Part shown: one piece after another, positions 22,916 to 64,000 of the stretch
How positions within the stretch are numbered: the first letter of the stretch is position 1
How the letters are laid out: the number at the start of each line of letters is the position of its first letter
NCBI RefSeq assembly: GCF_002554795.1
Contig: NZ_PDEQ01000002.1
Location: forward strand, 1-64,000
Direction of reading: 5' to 3'
Length of the DNA: 64,000 bases
Source of the DNA: Longibacter salinarum
GTDB lineage: Bacteria > Bacteroidota > Rhodothermia > Rhodothermales > Salinibacteraceae
The notes under the pieces: model-generated
Database searches by the model: none
Seen by the model: the letters and a program-made list of their open reading frames with translations, nothing else
What the model was told of the DNA's origin: nothing
Made by a program: the position numbers and the translations under genes

Positions 22916-23229
22916 GGATAAGCGCTGAGAGAAAGTAGAAGTGGATTGGCGAACGTGACACTGGCATGGGACAAAGATATGGCGACGTGAGAACATGACG
23001 AGTTGCAACGCGCTTGAGCGGGTCTAATTCGTCGAGCCTTGATTGATGACGACATATCCATTCCTTAGACTTAATCTAAATTGGTTGCGAACAGTCCCTG
23101 TCCAGCCGGTGCCGTACAGTAGTTTCGATAGACCGACAGGTTCGATGGGCCGACTCTTCTTTACGTTCAATCGGCTTCTGCGCGCTCCCATTTCCCCTGA
23201 CGATTGACCACGACCGCGTACCACTCCGA
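22916..23229. other. Divergent intergenic region with a palindromic operator candidate
   Basis: About 314 bp between the thioesterase and SusC genes. It holds the TTAGA-N5-TCTAA palindrome given separately. I see no gene of its own. Confidence 0.6.
23064..23081. promoter_or_regulatory. Palindromic operator candidate upstream of susC-like gene (TTAGA-N5-TCTAA)
   Basis: CTTAGACTTAATCTAAAT: TTAGA at 23065 pairs with TCTAA at 23075 around CTTAA. The same arms and spacing recur at 63014 (TTTAGA-ATGAG-TCTAAA), 20 bp before an iron-binding-type lipoprotein gene. The shape resembles DtxR/MntR-family metal-responsive sites. That assignment is inference; two sites in one window make the motif itself credible. 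It lies about 150 bp before the SusC-like ATG. Confidence 0.55.
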
Positions 23230-26200
23230 ATGAACGTTCTCGTCACGAAACGTGCTGCCGCCTGTGGGCTTCTCTTGTGTGGACTTTGTGTCGCGTTCCT
23301 GAGCACATCGGCGCGCGCGGCCCACGAGGGCGCCAGCCGGACGTCGGATACGATCACCATCAGCGGGATCGTCATTGATGAAAATGCGGACCCGCTTCCC
23401 GGCGTCAATGTCCGGATTAAGCAGACCGGTCGCGGGACGGCTACGACATCGGATGGTACCTTCTCGATCACAATCGGCGAGAGGCAGAGCCGGACCCTTG
23501 TGTTCTCCTTCGTGGGCTATGAAACCGTCGAGCGGACATTCGACGAGAGCCGGACAGACGTCGTCGTCGAGATGGAGGTCGACCAGCAGGAGCTGTCGGA
23601 GGTTGTCGTGACCGGGTACGGAATCGAGAAGACGCGCACGGAATTGGTCGGGAGTGTCACCGAGATCAGTGGGGAGGAGCTGGAGCCTTTGCGGCCCGAG
23701 GCGTCGTTCCAGACGCTGCTTAGTGGAAAAATCGCCGGCCTGAAGGTCAACAATCCGTCCGGCGGGGAAGCCGGAAAACCCATCTCCGTCAAGATTCGGG
23801 GTCAGGGTAGCCTGCCAACGCCCCAACTGCGTCGCTCGACGTCCTCTCAGCCGCTCTACATCATCGACGGTGTTCCGCTCTACGACATTCAATCCGAACA
23901 GTTTAACCAGGCCGCAGGGCGGGAGGAGCTCCTGAACCCGCTCGCCTCCATCAACGCCGACGACATCGAGAGCATCTCGGTCCTGAAAGATGCCTCCGCA
24001 GCGGCCATTTACGGCGCGAATGCGGCCAACGGTGTGATTCTCATCGAAACGAAGGACGGCGCGACGGACGGCTTCGATGTGGAGGCCCGCGTCAGTAGCG
24101 GCATGTCGAACTCCATCAACGAGGTGATGCTGCTCAATTCGGAGCAGTACGTCCGCCTGTACCAGGAAACGCTCATCAACGACGGCGCCACACCGGAGGA
24201 GGCGGCGCAGGAAGTGGGAAGCGACAGCGTTTACACGAACTGGGACGAGGTGCTGAAGCGACGGGCCATGTTCACCAACGCCACGCTCAGCTTTAGCGGC
24301 GGCACGGAGACCCTGTCGGCCCGCGTGTCGCTGAACTACAACGATCAGGAGACCATCTCGCGCGGGAATTCCTTCCAGAAGTACGGTTTCCGTTCGCGGA
24401 TTGACTATCAACTAGGGGATTTGGCGCGGGTCAACCTGAGCAACGGCGTGACCGGTATCGAAAAGGTGTCGCTCGGCAGCTTCAGCAACGTTCCGCTTCC
24501 CCCAAACATTTCCCCGTACGACGCAGACGGCGGATTCAACGACGCCACCATTTTTCAGGATCGGCCTAACCCGCTGGCGGTCATCGTGCAAAACGACAAC
24601 GACCACAACAGCCTTTCCACGACGAACAGCCTTCAGGTCACGGTCGAACCGATCAACAACCTGAATCTGCGTGCGCTCGGCGGGATCGATTACTACCAGA
24701 ACCGCAATTTTATTTACCGATCGAAAAAGAATGCGACGGGCAACGACAGCGGCGGCGGCCTGACGATTGTGAACCGACGCAATCGGAAGTGGATCACGAA
24801 CCTGACGGGCGACTACTCCTTCCGGCTCGGGGAGGCGCACGCGTTTTCTACGCTCGGCGGAGTCGAGGCGCAGGAGAAGAATACGAAGGTCCTCCGCGGC
24901 TCCGGATCTAATTTTCTGAACGATAACCTTCGTGTGCTTCAGGCTGCGGGCGATCGGGAGGACCGCGACGCTGCGTCGTCGGACGACAACGTCACCACCC
25001 TCTCGACGTTTGGGGAGATCAGCTATAACTATAACGGGAAGTTCAACACCTCGCTGAATGCGCGACGCGACGCGTCGTCCATCTTCGGCGGCGACGTGCG
25101 CAACGCCAACTTCGCATCGCTGGGCGTCTCGTATGTGCTGTCGGAAGAGCGCTTCTTCCGCGATCTCTCGTTTCTTGATTTTCTGAAGATCAAAAGCTCT
25201 TTCGGTAGCACCGGTAACTCCCGGATCGGGTCGTACGCCGCGCGGGGGCTTTACTCCGTCAGTTCGCAGAACGCGTACGCCGGACAGATCGGCCTCGTCC
25301 CGTCCACGCCGCAGAACACGCGGCTCACGTGGGAAAAGAATTACAAGTTCAACGCCGGCATCGACGCGACGCTGTTTGGCCGACTGGATGTTCTGGTCGA
25401 GTACTACCGGAACGAAATCGTCGACGCCATTTCCTCCATTGCCGTCCCGCACGAGTCCGGCTTTACGATCGGTGACGTGAATGCGGCCGACATGCGAAAT
25501 ACGGGGATCGAGGTGACGCTCGGCTATTCTATCTTCCAGGACGGCGACTTCACCTGGGACGTCGACGCCAATGCCGCCACGAATCGGAATGTCGTGACCG
25601 AGTTGAAGCTCGAGGACGCCGACATTTCCACGGTGAGCGGCATCGGATACCGCGTAGGGGAGGATGTGCGGACGATTTACGGGGTGAAGTACGCGGGTGT
25701 CGACCCCGAGAACGGCGAGGCTCTCTTTGAGCTGCCCGACGGGACGGTGACCGACGACTACAGTGTCGCCAGTCGGATCGAGAACCGGCAAAGGATCGGC
25801 GATGGGAATCCCAATGTGTTCGGCGGGTTCTCCAGCACCGTCTCCTACCGAAACCTGTCCCTACGCCTGGTCGGGGAATATTCGTTCGGCTCCGACATTC
25901 TCGTGTCGAACCTGTATGCCACGGATGGGCGCCAGATTTCGTTTAACAACCAGAGTGTCAACCAGCTCGACCGATGGCAGGAGCCGGGAGACCAGACCGA
26001 CGTGCCCCGTCTGTCGGAGAACGCGCCGCCGTATTCGGTCACCGACCGCTACGTTTACAACCTCGATTACGTCAAGCTCGCGAATATGACGCTTCGATAT
26101 TCGTTGCCCCAGTCCCTGGCCGAGCGCGTCGGCGTGGAGCGTGCCGGTGCCTTCATCAACGCCTCCAACATCGGCTACATCTACTTCGGCGACGCTCCCG

Positions 26201-26283
26201 ATGGTCGAAACGGGGCGGCCGAGTACCGCTATCGCTTTCCTGAGGCGCGCACGATCACCGCAGGCATTGACGTCACGATATGA
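23230..26283 (+). CDS. SusC/RagA-family TonB-linked outer-membrane protein
   Basis: A 1017-residue outer-membrane transporter. Signal peptide to about residue 35; carboxypeptidase-like domain (ISGIVIDENADPLPGVNVRI, SFVGYE); plug domain with the diagnostic SusC signature DASAAAIYGANAANGVILIE; then the barrel. The barrel ends in TITAGIDVTI. Together with the SusD-like gene, which overlaps its stop by four bases (ATGA), it forms the usual translationally coupled pair. The substrate cannot be read from sequence. No polysaccharide hydrolase is adjacent; instead a Calx-beta lipoprotein and a dihaem peroxidase follow, and a palindrome shared with an iron-uptake gene lies upstream. Confidence 0.95.
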   Translation: MNVLVTKRAAACGLLLCGLCVAFLSTSARAAHEGASRTSDTITISGIVIDENADPLPGVNVRIKQTGRGTATTSDGTFSITIGERQSRTLVFSFVGYETVERTFDESRTDVVVEMEVDQQELSEVVVTGYGIEKTRTELVGSVTEISGEELEPLRPEASFQTLLSGKIAGLKVNNPSGGEAGKPISVKIRGQGSLPTPQLRRSTSSQPLYIIDGVPLYDIQSEQFNQAAGREELLNPLASINADDIESISVLKDASAAAIYGANAANGVILIETKDGATDGFDVEARVSSGMSNSINEVMLLNSEQYVRLYQETLINDGATPEEAAQEVGSDSVYTNWDEVLKRRAMFTNATLSFSGGTETLSARVSLNYNDQETISRGNSFQKYGFRSRIDYQLGDLARVNLSNGVTGIEKVSLGSFSNVPLPPNISPYDADGGFNDATIFQDRPNPLAVIVQNDNDHNSLSTTNSLQVTVEPINNLNLRALGGIDYYQNRNFIYRSKKNATGNDSGGGLTIVNRRNRKWITNLTGDYSFRLGEAHAFSTLGGVEAQEKNTKVLRGSGSNFLNDNLRVLQAAGDREDRDAASSDDNVTTLSTFGEISYNYNGKFNTSLNARRDASSIFGGDVRNANFASLGVSYVLSEERFFRDLSFLDFLKIKSSFGSTGNSRIGSYAARGLYSVSSQNAYAGQIGLVPSTPQNTRLTWEKNYKFNAGIDATLFGRLDVLVEYYRNEIVDAISSIAVPHESGFTIGDVNAADMRNTGIEVTLGYSIFQDGDFTWDVDANAATNRNVVTELKLEDADISTVSGIGYRVGEDVRTIYGVKYAGVDPENGEALFELPDGTVTDDYSVASRIENRQRIGDGNPNVFGGFSSTVSYRNLSLRLVGEYSFGSDILVSNLYATDGRQISFNNQSVNQLDRWQEPGDQTDVPRLSENAPPYSVTDRYVYNLDYVKLANMTLRYSLPQSLAERVGVERAGAFINASNIGYIYFGDAPDGRNGAAEYRYRFPEARTITAGIDVTI

Positions 26284-27704
26284 AATCCCCCTCCCTCTAT
26301 TTCAGCCTGATCCTGGTTTTCTGCCTGGCCTCGTGCGATGGCTTTCTATACCAGGAGCCGACAACCGAGATCGCGCGGACCGAAGCGCTTTCCGACATCG
26401 AAAGTGTGGAGAGCTCGCTCTACGGCGCATACAACCTCACGATGCGCAGCGGGGACGCGTATCGCGGCTTTCTGACGTATTATGGCGACCTGACCGGCGG
26501 CAACGTTACGATCAATCCGGGGCTCACGACTGAGGCCGAGACGGAGCTGCGTCGGATCGAGGCGTTCAACAGCATTCCGGATCTCACGGTCGAGACCTAC
26601 ACGGATCTATACGCGATTCTGAACGCAGTCAATAACGTGATCAATGCGGTGCCGACGGTCCCTGACGGAACGCAGGCGCAGAAGGATCGCATCCTCGGTC
26701 AGGCGCTCGGTCTCCGCGCGCTCGTTCACTTCGATCTGGTTCGCATCTTTGCGCAGCCCTACAACTACACCGACGATGCGTCACACGTAGGCATTGTTGT
26801 CCTCACCGAGTCGCCGCGCCCGGATGAGGAAGTGCCGCGCTCGACCGTTCGGGATGCCTACGAGCAAATCGTGGACGACCTGGAGCGATCGATCGACCTG
26901 TTAGAAGGCGAGTCGTTCGACCCGGTCTTCGTTTCCGCCACGAGCGCACAGGCGCTGCTGGCACGAGTTCGCCTGTATCAGGGGGAGTGGGCGAAGGTTG
27001 TGACGCTCAGCAACGCGGTAATCGAGAGCGGGGCCACGGACCTGGCTCCGACCGAGGACATGCGGGAGATGTGGCAAAACGACTACGTCCGCAATGAATA
27101 CCTGCTGCGCCTGGACGGGTCTGGCTACGCCACGTACACGCTGTCGAGTGACTGGGGCAACCGCGTATCCGACACCAGTCCGGTACTCAGCGCGACGACT
27201 GACATCATCGATCTGTATGATGACGCGGACGTTCGGGGCCGGGGCCCGGACGGGCTGATTCAGCCGGTGGTCGATGAGGGCGACACGCTCCTTAGCACAC
27301 AGAAATATCCCGAGCCGTCGACGCAGGAGCCGAACGACATCGGCGTTCTGCGGCTGTCAGAGGTGTACCTCAACCGGGCGGAGGCCTACGCCAACCTGAA
27401 TCGCCCGGACCCGGCGCGCGAGGACCTGAACACGATTCGGCTCCGCGCCAATCCCGATGCCGATCCGGTGACAGCATCCGGTGACGCCCTTCTCGAGGCG
27501 ATCCTAGAAGAGCGGCGTCGCGAACTCGCGTTCGAGGGACACCTCTTGTTCGATCGGACGCGCTACGAGGAAGATGTGACTCGCCGGTACTGTTCAGGCG
27601 AACCATCCTGCAACGAGGCGTACCCGAGCCCGCGGTTCGTCCTCCCGATCCCGCGTGACGCGATGAACGCCAACGACGCACTCCGGCAAAACGACGAGTA
27701 CTGA
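26280..27704 (+). CDS. SusD/RagB-like surface nutrient-binding lipoprotein
   Basis: A 474-residue lipoprotein with lipobox LASC (residues about 16-19), the SusD N-terminal motif FLYQEPTTEIARTEALSD, helical TPR-like central region (ALGLRALVHFDLVRIFAQPY is the family hallmark), and the C-terminal RagB part (LRLSEVYLNRAEAYANL, LEERRRELAFEGHLLFD). It forms the lid of the SusC barrel on the outer membrane and captures ligand. The ATG overlaps the SusC stop. The closing region has a Cys pair (YCSGEPSCNE). Confidence 0.93.
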   Translation: MKSPSLYFSLILVFCLASCDGFLYQEPTTEIARTEALSDIESVESSLYGAYNLTMRSGDAYRGFLTYYGDLTGGNVTINPGLTTEAETELRRIEAFNSIPDLTVETYTDLYAILNAVNNVINAVPTVPDGTQAQKDRILGQALGLRALVHFDLVRIFAQPYNYTDDASHVGIVVLTESPRPDEEVPRSTVRDAYEQIVDDLERSIDLLEGESFDPVFVSATSAQALLARVRLYQGEWAKVVTLSNAVIESGATDLAPTEDMREMWQNDYVRNEYLLRLDGSGYATYTLSSDWGNRVSDTSPVLSATTDIIDLYDDADVRGRGPDGLIQPVVDEGDTLLSTQKYPEPSTQEPNDIGVLRLSEVYLNRAEAYANLNRPDPAREDLNTIRLRANPDADPVTASGDALLEAILEERRRELAFEGHLLFDRTRYEEDVTRRYCSGEPSCNEAYPSPRFVLPIPRDAMNANDALRQNDEY

Positions 27705-27806
27705 TCCAGTGGCGCGCCGACCGTCCGACCACATGTTTAGCACCATGAAAATCGCATTCGGTCGGCCGGACCGGGTTTGGCGCCCTTGTCAATGTCCTGA
27801 TGTGCC

Positions 27807-27831
27807 CTTATCTATATCTAATCCAGATAAG
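27807..27831 (+). promoter_or_regulatory. Hairpin or operator-like inverted repeat before the Calx-beta lipoprotein
   Basis: CTTATCT at 27807 pairs with AGATAAG at 27825 around an 11-base loop containing ATCTAATC. No T-run follows. It lies 40 bp before the lipoprotein ATG and about 100 bp after the SusD stop. It could be an intercistronic processing site or an operator half-related to the TCTAA motif upstream of the operon. Confidence 0.4.
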
Positions 27832-27870
27832 AGCAGTCCCTTGTTGCCGTTCCGTACAATCGCCCCGACG

Positions 27871-29271
27871 ATGACGTACCGTTCCATGTTTTCCGCGCTT
27901 CGCCGATCGCTATTGCCGGCCTGTCTCCTGTCCATCGCTCTGTTGTTCGCCGCGTGCGACAGTAACGACATGGCCATGCAAACCACTGTAGAGTTTGGTC
28001 AGGACACCTACCAGGTGTCGGAAGCCGGGCAGAGTCTCGACGTAGAGGTCGTGCTCGATTCGCCGGCCTCGGAAGAGGTAACGATTCCGATCACTGTGGG
28101 CGGCTCGGCCATTGCCGGCGTCGATTATGAGGAACCCGCATCCGACGACGTGACCATCGCGTCCGGTAGCACGTCTGGCACGTTCACGATTACGCCGATC
28201 GACAATGCCTCCATCGACGATCAGGATCGAACCATTGAGCTTCTGATCGACGCCGACGAAGTGGACGGCTACACCGGTGGCGCGACCGCAGGGGCAACGG
28301 TGACCATCACCGACGATGAGATGGTGGGCTCTTTCACCGTCTCGTTCCAGGAGGCGAGCTACGAGACGAACGAATACAATCAGGACACGCTCGACGTGCT
28401 GGTTGAAGTGAACCAGCCGGCCCCGGCAAATCTGCAGCTTGACTTCCAGACCGGTGGAACCGCAACGAGTGAAAACTATGAGCTCCTGAACAACTCCATC
28501 GAGATTCTCGCTGGCGAGACGCTGGATACCATTCAGGTCGCTGTTAAAGACACACGCAGTTACGGGGAAAGCGAAACCCTGACGTTGACGCTGCAGACGC
28601 CTGCGAACGACGCCGTCACGATCGGTGGGACAACGGAGACGGACATCACAATCGTGAACCCGGTCGCCGACATCGCGACGTACGCTCCCGATGAGGACTT
28701 CGCACGCCTCTACACCTACAACACATTCAGCGACGTCGCCGTCCCGGAGACCGGCCGACTCAATACGGATCCTTCCGCAGGGGTCATCTTCGATGAGTCG
28801 TTTGCCTTCACGATCGTCCCCGTCCGAGAAGATCCATCGGCCGACCCGAATGTCTTCGGCTTTGGCTCCTTCCTCTGGAGCGAAGATGACTTCACCCGCA
28901 GCACCAATATGCTGAACATGGTGGAGTTCTACGACGACGGCGAGCAGCCGAACACCGTCGATGAAGGCGTCTCTTCTGCATCGGCCGGTCTGTACTACCC
29001 GAGCCTTTTCCGTCTCACACCCGATGGACCGGGCGCGACGACCGGAACGGTTGAGTTAGTGCAAGACGAGATCCGTGTGTACAAGCCCGATCAGACGGAT
29101 GATGGCGTCACGAATCCTGAAAGCTTCGTGATTGGCATCAGCAGCGAGGGCGGCACCTACAACGAAACCGAAGGTACGATCAACATCACGATCACCTTCG
29201 ACGAGACCGCCGTGAACAACGGCTTCGTGACGCGGCGCTTCGAGCTAAGTGACCGGCGCCCGAGCTCCTGA
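27871..29271 (+). CDS. Lipoprotein with Calx-beta-like domains
   Basis: A 466-residue lipoprotein from ATG 27871, lipobox LLFAAC. Residues of about 40-160 and 160-275 are two Calx-beta-type Ig-like domains, each with the typical pattern of a strand, an acidic turn and an allowance for excess (VSEAGQSLDVEVVLDSPASE; ITVGGSAIAGVDYEEP; TVTITDDE at the end of the first). The C-terminal ~190 residues have no recognised fold but are Ser/Asp-rich with a final strand RRFELSDRRPSS. It sits third in a SusCD cluster, a place often occupied by surface ligand-binding lipoproteins. A ligand cannot be assigned. Confidence 0.8.
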   Translation: MTYRSMFSALRRSLLPACLLSIALLFAACDSNDMAMQTTVEFGQDTYQVSEAGQSLDVEVVLDSPASEEVTIPITVGGSAIAGVDYEEPASDDVTIASGSTSGTFTITPIDNASIDDQDRTIELLIDADEVDGYTGGATAGATVTITDDEMVGSFTVSFQEASYETNEYNQDTLDVLVEVNQPAPANLQLDFQTGGTATSENYELLNNSIEILAGETLDTIQVAVKDTRSYGESETLTLTLQTPANDAVTIGGTTETDITIVNPVADIATYAPDEDFARLYTYNTFSDVAVPETGRLNTDPSAGVIFDESFAFTIVPVREDPSADPNVFGFGSFLWSEDDFTRSTNMLNMVEFYDDGEQPNTVDEGVSSASAGLYYPSLFRLTPDGPGATTGTVELVQDEIRVYKPDQTDDGVTNPESFVIGISSEGGTYNETEGTINITITFDETAVNNGFVTRRFELSDRRPSS

Positions 29272-29460: not shown

Positions 29461-30630
29461 ATGGACCCACGGTTCGCCATAATGAGATCTAGCCTCCTGA
29501 TCGGCCTGGTCGTGGTCGTCTTGGGTGTCTTCTTCTATCAAATGAGCAGCTGGCCGATTCAGGCCGATGCCGTTCCTGCCATCATCCGGACCTACAAAGG
29601 ACCGCAGGGCGGGTGGCCAGCGCCTCATCTGTCCGAGGACGTTTCCCATCGACCTCTTGCCCCGCTTCCGGACGTGGAGTATCCAGCGAATAACCCGTAC
29701 TCAGAGACAAAAGAGGATCTCGGAAAAAAGCTCTTCTTCGACCCGCGGCTCTCTTCATCTGGTACGCTCGCTTGCGCAAGTTGCCACGATCCGGATCTTG
29801 GTTGGAGTGACGGACGACGACGCTCGTTTGGCCATGCCCGGCGTGAGGGACAGCGAAACAGTATGACGGTCCTGAACGCGGCATACTACGATCACCTTTT
29901 CTGGGACGGACGCGCGGAGGACCTTGAAGAGCAGGCCATGACCGCCATCGCGGGCCCGCGCGAAATGAATCAGGGTCTCGACCTTGTTGGGGAAGGCATC
30001 CGTGACCTACCGGACTACCCTCGCTTATTTCAGCAGAGCTTCGGCGATTCGACCATCAACGCGCAGCGCATCGCGAAGGCGATTGCAACGTTCGAGCGCG
30101 GCATCACCAGTCGGAGGAGCGACTTCGATCGTTTCCTGCAGGGGAATCGTGACGCCATGACCGATCGTCAGATTTACGGCCTGCATGTCTTCCGCACGAC
30201 GGGGCAGTGTATGAACTGCCACAACGGCGCCCTGCTGTCCGACGACAAATTCCACAACCTGGGCCAGTCCCATCTCGGACGACCTTCGGAGGACTTGGGT
30301 CGGTTCCTGGTCACAGGGGATACATCCGACGTCGGCAAATTTAGAACGCCGTCCCTTCGGGATGTGACGTACACCGGTCCCTACTTGCACCACGGATTGA
30401 TCTTTAACCTGCGGGAGGTAATTGACATGTACGACCGCGGCATGCCGCAGGTTATTCCGAAAAAGGAAGCGGGAAACCCGCTGTACCCGGAGACCTCGCC
30501 ACTGCTTGAGCCGCTGGATTTATCGGAGCGAGAGATCGAGGCGTTACTCGATTTTTTGGAGGCAATCTCGACTCGTCCACGCCGGATGTCGGCACCGGAA
30601 CTGCCGGGGATGGAGCGAAACGACGCGTAG
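29461..30630 (+). CDS. Dihaem cytochrome c peroxidase/MauG-family protein
   Basis: A 389-residue membrane-anchored or exported protein (hydrophobic segment residues about 10-27). Two CXXCH haem sites are visible: CASCH near residue 105 and CMNCH near residue 253, with the family motif GKKLFFDPRLSSSGTLACAS before the first and GKFRTPSLRDVTYTGPYLHH after the second. LFWDGRAEDLEEQAMTAI lies between. This is the bacterial cytochrome c peroxidase/MauG superfamily: peroxide reduction or oxidative modification of a partner protein in the periplasm. It lies after a SusCD-lipoprotein cluster, separated by a terminator; a joint role, for example in oxidative release or modification of a ligand, is inference. 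Confidence 0.93.
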   Translation: MDPRFAIMRSSLLIGLVVVVLGVFFYQMSSWPIQADAVPAIIRTYKGPQGGWPAPHLSEDVSHRPLAPLPDVEYPANNPYSETKEDLGKKLFFDPRLSSSGTLACASCHDPDLGWSDGRRRSFGHARREGQRNSMTVLNAAYYDHLFWDGRAEDLEEQAMTAIAGPREMNQGLDLVGEGIRDLPDYPRLFQQSFGDSTINAQRIAKAIATFERGITSRRSDFDRFLQGNRDAMTDRQIYGLHVFRTTGQCMNCHNGALLSDDKFHNLGQSHLGRPSEDLGRFLVTGDTSDVGKFRTPSLRDVTYTGPYLHHGLIFNLREVIDMYDRGMPQVIPKKEAGNPLYPETSPLLEPLDLSEREIEALLDFLEAISTRPRRMSAPELPGMERNDA

Positions 30631-50281: not shown

Positions 50282-50543
50282 GGCGGCCGAAGCAGCGAGA
50301 TCGACGGATCGGTGATGTCCCACGTGACAACATACGGGCTACGAGGTGGAATTGATGGACGCTTTCGGATCGACACCGAGATGTCACGGTATGTGACGGC
50401 CTGCAAAACGCGTCGGGGAACGGGTCGTCGCTATCCACGACGCGCCAGATGCGAGACGAGCGGTCCGGAACCCGCCGATTCACGGGGAGGTTGCAGCGAT
50501 CCCTCTCTCGAACACTTTTGGAGCGACGCCGCCGACACCTGAC

Positions 50544-52664
50544 GTGAGTTTTCTCAACCCGTTCGTTCTGCTTGCGCTGGCGACGGTAGCCATCCCGCTG
50601 CTCCTGCACCTCTTCAATCTGCGACGGCCGCAGCGTGTCGACTTCAGCTCGCTTTCGTTCGTCAAGGAGCTGCAGAAGTCGGCGGTGCAGCGTGTTCGCA
50701 TCAAGCAGTGGCTGTTGCTAGCTCTTCGGATGCTCGCGATCGCCTGTCTGGTGCTTGCCTTTGCCCAACCAACGCTGACAGGCGGTCTCTCCGGGGTTGG
50801 GCAAAAGGTTCGCACGGCGCACGCTATCGTCATTGACAACTCCCTGTCCATGACGATGTCGGATGCGGACGGAGAGTATCTGAAGCAGGCGCTTGCCCAG
50901 GCCGACGATGTCCTTTCCACCGCATCGGATGGTGACGACGTGATCGTGTGGCCCACGGCCCGGGCCGTGGCTGCGCGTCCCTCGCTGATGCAGAATCTGC
51001 CGGCGGCCCGCGATGCGATTCGGCAGGTCGAACCGGCAGCGGGTGCGACCGAGCTGTCAACAGCAATTGCGCAGGCCGCACAGGCGCTTTCTGAAAGCAC
51101 CGCTCCGCGGAAGGTTGTGTATGTCGCATCGGACCTGCAGGCGTCAATGCTGGGCGACTCAACGGCGACATCGATGCCGGAGGACGTGGTGACGACGCTC
51201 CTTCCGGTCGGGGATCGCTCACACGCCAATGCCGGCGTCACCGATGTGCAGGTCAAAAGCCGCATTATCGAGGTGGGGCAGGCGGTCGAGATCGAGGCGA
51301 CGCTGGTCAATCACGGGAGCGAGACGCTTCCCGGATCGGTTGCGAGCGTCTACCTTCAGGGGGAGCGTGTTGCGCAGGCGACGGCCGACCTTGAGCCAGG
51401 CCAACCCGAGACGGTGTCGTTTACCGTGTCGCCCGCCTCGCGTGGGTGGCTGACCGGCACCGTCGAGATCGAGGATGACGCGTTTTCTCCAGACAATGCG
51501 CGTCCTTTCGTGCTTCACGTGCCGGAGGAGCGTCGTGTTCTCGTCGTCCGAGGGGAGGGTCAGCGAACGCGCTACGTCGACCTGGCGCTGTCGTCTGAGA
51601 TGACATCGGATCGCCTTGCCTTTCAAACAGAAACGATTTCGGAAGCGGCGCTGCCATCCACCGAACTGGGCGGATACGACGCCGTGCTGCTGGTCGGGCC
51701 GCGGAGTCTGTCGAGTGGCGAGATCAGCTCTCTCAAGCGCTACGTGGAGCGGGGCGGCGGCATGATGCTCTTCCCCAGCGCGCAGGCTCGACCCGAGCAG
51801 TACGGCAGCCTCTTCTCTGAACTCGGAGCGGGAAGCTTCCGCGGGTTTAGTGGTGAACTGGGCACGCGCCGCTCCATCGCTACGTTCGACCGCGTGGATC
51901 TTCAGCATCCGCTTTTCGATGGCGTGTTTGACGCGGAGAGCGATCCTTCGTCCTCTGAGGTTGAGAGTCCGGACGTGTACTACGCGATGAATGCACCCAC
52001 CGCCGGCGCCCGGGGACAGACGCTCATCGATCTGTCGAACGGCTATCCGTTTCTGCAGGAGCTTCGCGCGGGGAGCGGCGTCGCCCTGGTTGCCGCCGTG
52101 GCTCCGGACCCGGAGTGGAGCGACCTTCCTGTCCGCGGATTGTTTATCCCTTTACTGTATCGATCCGTGTACTACCTCTCGGCAGGGACGTCCGTCGGCG
52201 GGGAAACTATCACGGCAGGAGCGTCGCACGAGCTGCGCGTCACGGCTGTGCTGACCGAGCAAGAACTTCGACTGGTTGGGCCCGATGGCGTCGACCGCGT
52301 TCCAGAACAGCGATCTCTCTTCGGCGCGACGCTCCTTGAAGTGGGACAAGATCTCCATGAGACCGGAATCTATGACGTTATGTCCGGGGAGACCTTGGTT
52401 CGGCGCCTTGCGGTCGCTCTTCGTGCTGAGGAATCAGATCTGTCTGCGGCGTCCGTCGATGTGGCGCGATCAAAGCTAAGTGAGGCCACCGGACACTCGG
52501 TCGAGCCTCTGGTGACGTCCGACACAGAGAGTGTTGCAGCAGCTCTCGAACAGCAGCGTGCGGGGACGGAAATCTGGAACGTCTTTTTGTTGCTGGCGTT
52601 GATTTTCCTGGTTGCTGAACAGGTTCTCGCACGGCTCTGGCAGCCCGAAACGGTCTCTGCCTAG
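50544..52664 (+). CDS. BatA-domain/VWA membrane protein
   Basis: A 706-residue protein beginning at GTG 50544. The N-terminus is the BatA/TIGR02226 module: FLNPFVLLALATVAIPLLLH, LFNLRRPQRVDFSSLSFVKE, and a second membrane helix (LLLALRMLAIACLVLAFAQP). A von Willebrand A-like domain follows with HAIVIDNSLSMTMSDADGEY (MIDAS-like DNSLS). Two Ig-like segments (VNHGSETLPGSVASVYLQGE) and a glutamine-amidotransferase-like region (GGYDAVLLVGPRSLSSGEIS) are in the middle, and a single membrane helix (FLLLALIFLVAEQVLARLW) ends it. Such proteins accompany MoxR/Bat systems in Bacteroidota for stress or envelope functions; no MoxR ATPase is next to it here. Confidence 0.88.
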   Translation: MSFLNPFVLLALATVAIPLLLHLFNLRRPQRVDFSSLSFVKELQKSAVQRVRIKQWLLLALRMLAIACLVLAFAQPTLTGGLSGVGQKVRTAHAIVIDNSLSMTMSDADGEYLKQALAQADDVLSTASDGDDVIVWPTARAVAARPSLMQNLPAARDAIRQVEPAAGATELSTAIAQAAQALSESTAPRKVVYVASDLQASMLGDSTATSMPEDVVTTLLPVGDRSHANAGVTDVQVKSRIIEVGQAVEIEATLVNHGSETLPGSVASVYLQGERVAQATADLEPGQPETVSFTVSPASRGWLTGTVEIEDDAFSPDNARPFVLHVPEERRVLVVRGEGQRTRYVDLALSSEMTSDRLAFQTETISEAALPSTELGGYDAVLLVGPRSLSSGEISSLKRYVERGGGMMLFPSAQARPEQYGSLFSELGAGSFRGFSGELGTRRSIATFDRVDLQHPLFDGVFDAESDPSSSEVESPDVYYAMNAPTAGARGQTLIDLSNGYPFLQELRAGSGVALVAAVAPDPEWSDLPVRGLFIPLLYRSVYYLSAGTSVGGETITAGASHELRVTAVLTEQELRLVGPDGVDRVPEQRSLFGATLLEVGQDLHETGIYDVMSGETLVRRLAVALRAEESDLSAASVDVARSKLSEATGHSVEPLVTSDTESVAAALEQQRAGTEIWNVFLLLALIFLVAEQVLARLWQPETVSA

Positions 52665-63013: not shown

Positions 63014-63030
63014 TTTAGAATGAGTCTAAA
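63014..63030. promoter_or_regulatory. Palindromic operator candidate (TTTAGA-N5-TCTAAA) before the iron-binding-type gene
   Basis: TTTAGA, spacer ATGAG, TCTAAA: a perfect 6-bp inverted repeat with a 5-bp spacer. It lies 20 bp before the ATG, a position that would let a repressor block transcription. It matches the site at 23064. The layout is close to DtxR/MntR-type boxes, but the regulator is not identified in this window. Confidence 0.6.
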
Positions 63031-63049: not shown

Positions 63050-64000
63050 ATGTCTGCTATGATACGTACTCTCGCCACTGTTTTTTCCGCCTTGCTTCTG
63101 GTGTTCAGCCTCAGCGCGTGCCAGTCGGGTGGAGAAGAGGAGAACAAGGAGCTTATCGTATACTCCGGCCGCAGCCAGGCCCTCGTCGACTCTCTTGTTG
63201 AGAAGTACCGTGCGCAGTCGGACGTAAACGTGCAGATTCGCTACGGCACCGACTCGCAGCTATTGGCGGCGCTGCAGGAAGAAGGAGACCAGAGCTCGGC
63301 TGACGTCTTCTGGGCGAACACCGCGGGTGCTCTCGGCAATGCCGTGAATAACAACCTGCTTGCGGACCTGCCGGACACCTTGAACGCGATGCCGGACCGT
63401 TTTGCGTCGGCCAGTGGCAAGTGGACGCCGGTAACGGCCCGCTTCCGTGTTCTCGCGTACAACACAGACCAGGTCGACAGCACCGCTCTCCCGGCCTCAA
63501 TCACCGATCTGCCGAATGCGGACGAGTTCGAAGGACGCATCGGTTGGACGCCCGCCTACTCCAGCTTCCAGGACTTCGTTACGGCGCTGCGCGTCACGAA
63601 AGGCGACTCGACGGCCCGCGCATGGCTGGAGAGCATGAAGGAGCTGAACCCGAAGAGCTACACCTCTAACACCCCGATGATTCGGGCGCTTGCAGCAGGC
63701 GAAATCGATATCGCCCTGACGAACCACTACTACGTGCTCCGTATCACGAATCCGGCGCCGGAGGGTGAGTACGAAGAAGAAGAGCATGAAGAAGAGGAAG
63801 AAGGAGAAGAAGAGTCGATTGCTGCTTCGGCCCCGGTCGCCACGTATCACTTCGAAGATGGGGACGTCGGAAACCTTGCTCTTGTGACGGGAGCGGGCGT
63901 GCTGCAGACGACGGATCAGTCGGCCGCTGCACAGGACTTCATTCGTTTCCTTCTCTCGGAAGAAGCACAGGCCTACGGTGCGCAGACCGTGCACGAGTAT
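63050..64000 (+). CDS. Iron(III)-binding-type ABC transporter substrate-binding lipoprotein (partial, right edge)
   Basis: The first 317 codons of a lipoprotein that continues past the window. Leader MSAMIRTLATVFSALLLVFS with lipobox SLSAC. The mature part begins with KELIVYSGRSQALVDSLVEK, the usual start of the FbpA/FutA-type periplasmic ferric-binding proteins. NHYYVLR at residues 225-231 contains the Tyr pair that binds Fe3+ in this family. An acidic insertion of about 16 residues (residues ~240-255, Glu-rich with a His) follows shortly after and is not typical. The permease and ATPase genes are expected beyond the edge. Regulation by the upstream palindrome is inference. Confidence 0.9.
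   Translation, partial: MSAMIRTLATVFSALLLVFSLSACQSGGEEENKELIVYSGRSQALVDSLVEKYRAQSDVNVQIRYGTDSQLLAALQEEGDQSSADVFWANTAGALGNAVNNNLLADLPDTLNAMPDRFASASGKWTPVTARFRVLAYNTDQVDSTALPASITDLPNADEFEGRIGWTPAYSSFQDFVTALRVTKGDSTARAWLESMKELNPKSYTSNTPMIRALAAGEIDIALTNHYYVLRITNPAPEGEYEEEEHEEEEEGEEESIAASAPVATYHFEDGDVGNLALVTGAGVLQTTDQSAAAQDFIRFLLSEEAQAYGAQTVHEY

Follow-up and report, generated by a model that had tools for sequence, protein, structure and literature searches.

Does one metal-responsive regulator act on two separate loci of the 64-kb window (the whole stretch of DNA analysed), and is the ligand of the SusC/SusD system encoded there a metal or haem complex? The question was raised by two similar palindromes, one upstream of a SusC operon and the other upstream of a gene for an iron-binding-type lipoprotein. 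The explanation favoured here, with moderate confidence and on the evidence of sequence comparison, is an iron-responsive repressor operator combined with iron import by a SusCD–MauG operon. Its observed basis is a motif that is not randomly distributed, is associated with iron genes and is conserved upstream of SusC, together with the linkage between TonB receptors and MauG.

Two palindromes and the genes behind them

The features of the two loci are as follows.

23064..23080, no strand assigned: palindrome CTTAGA-CTTAA-TCTAAA, putative iron operator of the SusC operon
23230..26283, + strand: SusC/RagA-type TonB-dependent outer-membrane receptor, 1017 aa (Pfam Plug and CarbopepD_reg_2; NCBIfam TIGR04056, 660 bits)
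26280..27704, + strand: SusD-type surface lipoprotein, 474 aa (PF07980, PF14322)
27709..29271, + strand: Calx-beta / weakly DUF4843-like lipoprotein (PF03160, weak PF16132; lipobox LLFAAC)
29461..30630, + strand: di-haem CCP/MauG-family protein, 389 aa, two CxxCH (PF03150, 3e-52)
63014..63030, no strand assigned: palindrome TTTAGA-ATGAG-TCTAAA, putative iron operator of fbpABC
63050..64000, continuing to about contig position 64141 beyond the window, + strand: FbpA-type ferric-iron-binding lipoprotein (294 bits to 3wae)

An earlier note had described the same palindrome at both loci. The arms TTAGA/TCTAA and the 5-bp spacing are indeed common to the two, but the full arm on the SusC side is imperfect (CTTAGA...TCTAAA), giving one mismatch to the 17-bp form. 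The SusC-side core, TTAGACTTAATCTAA, occupies 23065–23079 and the fbpA-side palindrome, TTTAGAATGAGTCTAAA, 63014–63030. Two occurrences of TTAGA-N5-TCTAA were found in the window against 0.01 expected from shuffles. The fbpA-side site ends 19 bp before the ATG at 63050 and 28 bp before the ATG at 63059, in agreement with the spacing of about 20 bp first proposed, and its position is the same in most genomes of the family. On the SusC side, the distance to the ATG at 23230 is 149 bp, which exceeds the 20–60 bp usual for sites before fbpA.

The gene annotations of the earlier note also held. The lipoprotein called FbpA/FutA-like shares the tandem tyrosine motif NHYYV with the solved periplasmic iron-binding protein 3wae, and genes for an FbpB permease and an FbpC ATPase lie downstream. 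With its tandem tyrosines and its permease and ATPase genes, fbpABC has the sequence features of a ferric-iron ABC importer. The SusC cluster ends in a di-haem protein, and no glycan-active enzyme was found in it by Pfam. The MauG-like protein scored below the cut-offs of NCBIfam TIGR03791 and TIGR04039, reaching 211.8 of 362.9 bits with the latter, the MbnH model; its alignment is compatible with either Tyr or Met as the candidate axial ligand. The Calx-beta lipoprotein probably starts at an internal ATG near 27871; it has relatives in loci L269 and L270, and its predicted structure was poor (pLDDT 40).

Distribution of the palindrome

Four perfect TTTAGA-N5-TCTAAA sites were found in the 4.4-Mb genome, compared with none for the reversed control and 0.04 expected from base composition. 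The shorter form TTAGA-N5-TCTAA occurred six times genome-wide, against once for its control, and seven one-mismatch sites were seen where about two are expected by chance (estimate from base composition). With two mismatches allowed, the count of 45 sites was close to the 40 of the control genome-wide, so matches this weak must not be counted.

Perfect sites precede fbpABC (63014), a two-subunit 2-oxoacid:ferredoxin oxidoreductase (POR) and a gene for a 108-aa Cys-containing protein; this last site is flanked on its opposite side by a TonB-type outer-membrane protein. A divergent gene pair for small cysteine-rich proteins of 105 and 72 aa carries one perfect and one one-mismatch site. One-mismatch sites stand before each of two TonB receptor and PepSY_TM gene pairs and before a further TonB receptor. 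One site precedes the gene for a 475-aa protein without a Pfam match and one lies in an intergenic stretch, with no iron gene at either. Such a scan had been proposed as the check on a regulon, with random or metal-unrelated placement as the finding that would speak against it; the perfect and one-mismatch sites mostly precede iron-type genes, and the perfect ones are absent from the control.

The metal (iron) regulon suggested for the two palindromes extends beyond this genome. The perfect form occurs 64 times in 23 family genomes, against 0 for the reversed control. Contexts were examined for 60 sites on 55 fetched stretches, and 55 of these sites could be assigned: to fbpA (18), the Cys-rich pair (18), TonB receptors (9), POR (5) and relatives of the 108-aa protein (DUF109; 5). 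The family sites give the extended consensus TTA-TTTAGA-NYNRN-TCTAAA-TAA, that is, TTATTTAGA-NYNRN-TCTAAATAA. Sites in f17, a more distantly related family of the class, stand before fbpA, fbpB, TonB receptors and a small number of further genes, with weaker enrichment over control than in the family of 23 genomes. Another family, f10, has both Fur and DtxR, yet no perfect site was found in 9 genomes. Phylogenetic profiles of the two regulators did not explain this lack, and the operator may have changed there.

Because the sites stand before iron-type genes across family and class, the palindrome is, as judged from its genomic contexts, a conserved iron-regulon operator. Literature searches on the motif, on Fur boxes and DtxR in Bacteroidetes and on SusCD in iron limitation returned no description of this box, the letter-based search being unspecific, and no account was found of how iron genes are regulated in this Bacteroidota-like lineage. 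The motif supplies a ready-made regulon for it.

Conservation of the site before SusC

An orthologue of SusC was found in one sister genome (G192, 93% identity), the other class matches listed having 31–37% identity. At the matching upstream place, G192 has ATTAGA-ATTAG-TCTAAA, in which the 5-bp arms are identical and the centre is changed. The upstream regions of the two species are 67% identical overall, and both 5-bp arms are kept in 4 of 236 windows. In either species the putative operator is the sole 5-5-5 palindrome upstream of SusC. A consensus search around the site found no sigma-70-like promoter.

The SusC-side site probably functions as an operator, although this is less certain than for the fbpA site. 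A regulon that is real but excludes the SusC–MauG operon would require the palindrome here to be a chance one-mismatch match. The imperfect arm and the long distance to the ATG are compatible with this, and neither of the one-mismatch sites C2:186013 and C8:50347 has an iron gene behind it. Nevertheless, chance does not fit well with arms that stay identical while the surrounding sequence diverges and no second 5-5-5 palindrome is present, and iron-type TonB receptors are linked to the MauG subfamily independently of the palindrome. A chance match is therefore considered improbable.

The SusC homologues at 31–37% identity in the class were rejected as counterparts, being different SusCD systems without MauG; weak upstream motif matches at a few of them were left out of the counts.

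Fur and the DtxR-type protein as candidate regulators

The genome encodes exactly one Fur protein (PF01475) and exactly one DtxR-family protein, the latter with DtxR N- and C-domains and a FeoA/SH3-like domain. The Fur ligands His/Glu/His-Asp-His and the Cys pairs align with those of E. coli Fur, with Gln at the E108 position. In the DtxR-type protein and all of its aligned relatives, Asp and Glu occupy the positions of DtxR Met10 and Cys102 (IEDYLK, EEAEHLEHH); solved relatives were among the proteins aligned. Of the NCBIfam models, an MntR matches it best, with a score below cut-off. Met10 and Cys102 are iron-type DtxR ligands, while Asp and Glu at these positions form the MntR (manganese) pattern.

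A Pfam search found DtxR in 182 of the 195 class genomes; among the 159 of high quality, Fur was found in 158 and DtxR in 152. Genome G065 (98% complete, 3 contigs) is without DtxR, yet a perfect site stands 29 bp upstream of its fbpA. G162 and G024, where the motif count gave 4 and 2 sites, are also without it. Absence from the three genomes was given by two agreeing searches, the Pfam search having the 182 genomes as positive control. Sites also occur in genomes without a Fur match (G127, G189 and G160; 85–93% complete). Autoregulation offers no clue: fur has no site nearby, and no convincing one was found at dtxR. The Nramp genes of the family have no site upstream, and their upstream regions showed no alternative palindrome assignable to the DtxR-type protein.

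The Fur box is a 7-1-7 inverted repeat, TGATAATnATTATCA. The 5-bp arms of the palindrome around its 5-bp centre match the outer-arm geometry of this box, and this arrangement appears to suit the outer arms of a 7-1-7 box better than a DtxR/IdeR box. The targets, namely ferric ABC importers, TonB receptors and PepSY_TM proteins, resemble those of a Fur regulon, as does the single Fur with Fur-type metal ligands. The putative site, known from sequence, differs from the Fur box in its arms, which are TTAGA/TCTAA rather than TGATA/TATCA, and in lacking the usual conserved AT centre (NYNRN). According to PMC6613475, PgFur of P. gingivalis does not bind the canonical Fur box of E. coli.

On balance, Fur is the better candidate and would probably be the protein that reads the palindrome. 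Alternatively, the reader of the palindrome in the same iron regulon might be the DtxR-family protein, with Fe(II) and/or Mn(II) as its signal. That protein is a single copy with a FeoA domain and is widespread in the class. The arms recall the TTAGG/CCTAA of DtxR/IdeR boxes, and in one relative (L132) a site lies between dtxR and a divergently oriented TonB receptor gene. Nevertheless, the arm spacing is unlike that of the IdeR box, the ligand residues are of the MntR type, the Nramp genes are without a site, and the protein is missing from the site-bearing G065, G162 and G024, although the G065 point rests on a 98%-complete genome. The DtxR-type protein is thus a serious though rather unlikely candidate. 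A DtxR/MntR-type regulator had been predicted, and the lack of one named as the finding against the idea. One such gene exists, so that objection does not arise; a reading of the palindrome by this protein, however, is not supported and is probably the wrong assignment.

Ligand of the SusC/SusD system

In its SusC barrel and SusD lid followed by a weakly DUF4843-like lipoprotein, the operon resembles the SusC/SusD importers of Bacteroidota. It differs from those for glycans or peptides in having no glycan enzymes, a di-haem enzyme as the last gene and a putative iron operator upstream. Among relatives of the MauG protein, the same SusC–SusD–lipoprotein–MauG operon was found in MAG GSL.Bin3 (84% identity), which probably belongs to the genus studied here, and in a Microscillaceae MAG, where two further genes accompany it. 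In Chryseobacterium, SusC–SusD–MauG adjoins a VIT1 gene.

Of 57 loci in which the MauG gene was readable, 28 have a TonB receptor close by, mostly as the adjacent gene. This neighbour is present at nearly all the MauG loci examined from Bacteroidota and Proteobacteria, and the loci without it are mostly from Planctomycetota, Nitrospinota and similar groups. A FecI/FecR (ECF sigma/FecR) pair was found at six loci and an imelysin-DHOR-imelysin-DUF1513 operon at three. These neighbours are of the iron type and make a metal-chelate or haem ligand likely. The earlier proposal of such a ligand is supported as probable: the SusC/SusD system probably imports iron (or another metal or a haem complex), not sugar.

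The nearest published layout to the TonB receptor–MauG loci appears to be the MbnT-MbnI/MbnR-MbnH arrangement of methanobactin operons (PMC3621798). In both, a di-haem CCP/MauG protein adjoins a TonB-dependent transporter, sometimes with ECF sigma/FecR. Here, however, no MbnP and no methanobactin genes were seen, the MauG-like protein is below the MbnH model cut-off, and the Bacteroidota receptor is SusC-type with SusD and has a different partner lipoprotein. An operon carrying copper (methanobactin-like) or another metal, with a regulator answering to several metals, would be in keeping with the combination of TonB receptor, FecI/FecR and di-haem MbnH in some methanobactin operons (PMC3621798) and with a multicopper-oxidase-like gene near MauG locus L290. 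It is highly improbable given that a search for the MbnP partner among the SusC-operon neighbours gave no match, that the remaining regulon genes are iron-type and that the imelysin/DHOR neighbours of MauG indicate iron.

Proposed mechanism

For an iron-carrying SusCD–MauG operon, the following scheme is proposed. When iron is plentiful, a metal-loaded repressor, most likely the single Fur, would occupy TTTAGA-NYNRN-TCTAAA and block transcription of the iron-import genes, acting by repression rather than activation. Iron scarcity would lead to its release. The SusC–SusD–lipoprotein–MauG operon would be among the genes so controlled, its lid-and-barrel pair importing an iron-containing ligand, which could be haem, a ferric chelate or a metal-binding peptide. 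In the periplasm, the di-haem MauG-type enzyme may then oxidise the ligand or a partner protein, leading to metal release or capture.

It is proposed more tentatively, at somewhat less than an even chance, that SusCD for iron or haem together with a di-haem MauG forms a general module across Bacteroidota and Proteobacteria, placed here under a Fur reading a previously undescribed operator. So far as limited literature searching goes, the operator and the SusCD/MauG variant are new, both being of known kinds. SusC/SusD pairs, usually annotated as sugar importers, gain a putative iron-uptake system, and the di-haem enzyme is indicated as a recurring partner of TonB receptors with a testable substrate.

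Additional observations

The POR enzyme is an odd, unexpected target for an iron-loaded repressor; its operator lies 8–143 bp upstream in several genomes (L023:3869-7166; L130, L140, L146, L158, L162). Few members of the regulon are as well conserved as the Cys-rich pair (L024:5377-6225; no Pfam match), which often has two palindromes 110–190 bp apart.

On contig C8, at about 50347–50645 (L029:4848-5145), a one-mismatch palindrome has no ORF directly behind it, and a strong terminator-like inverted repeat lies about 270 bp downstream. No Rfam match was found in this interval; the two elements could possibly delimit an iron-responsive small RNA.

In Marinobacterium (L277, L279 and L289), a MauG–TonB receptor pair lies directly 3' of the imelysin-DHOR-imelysin-DUF1513 operon, an arrangement which suggests that the two may form one iron-uptake unit.
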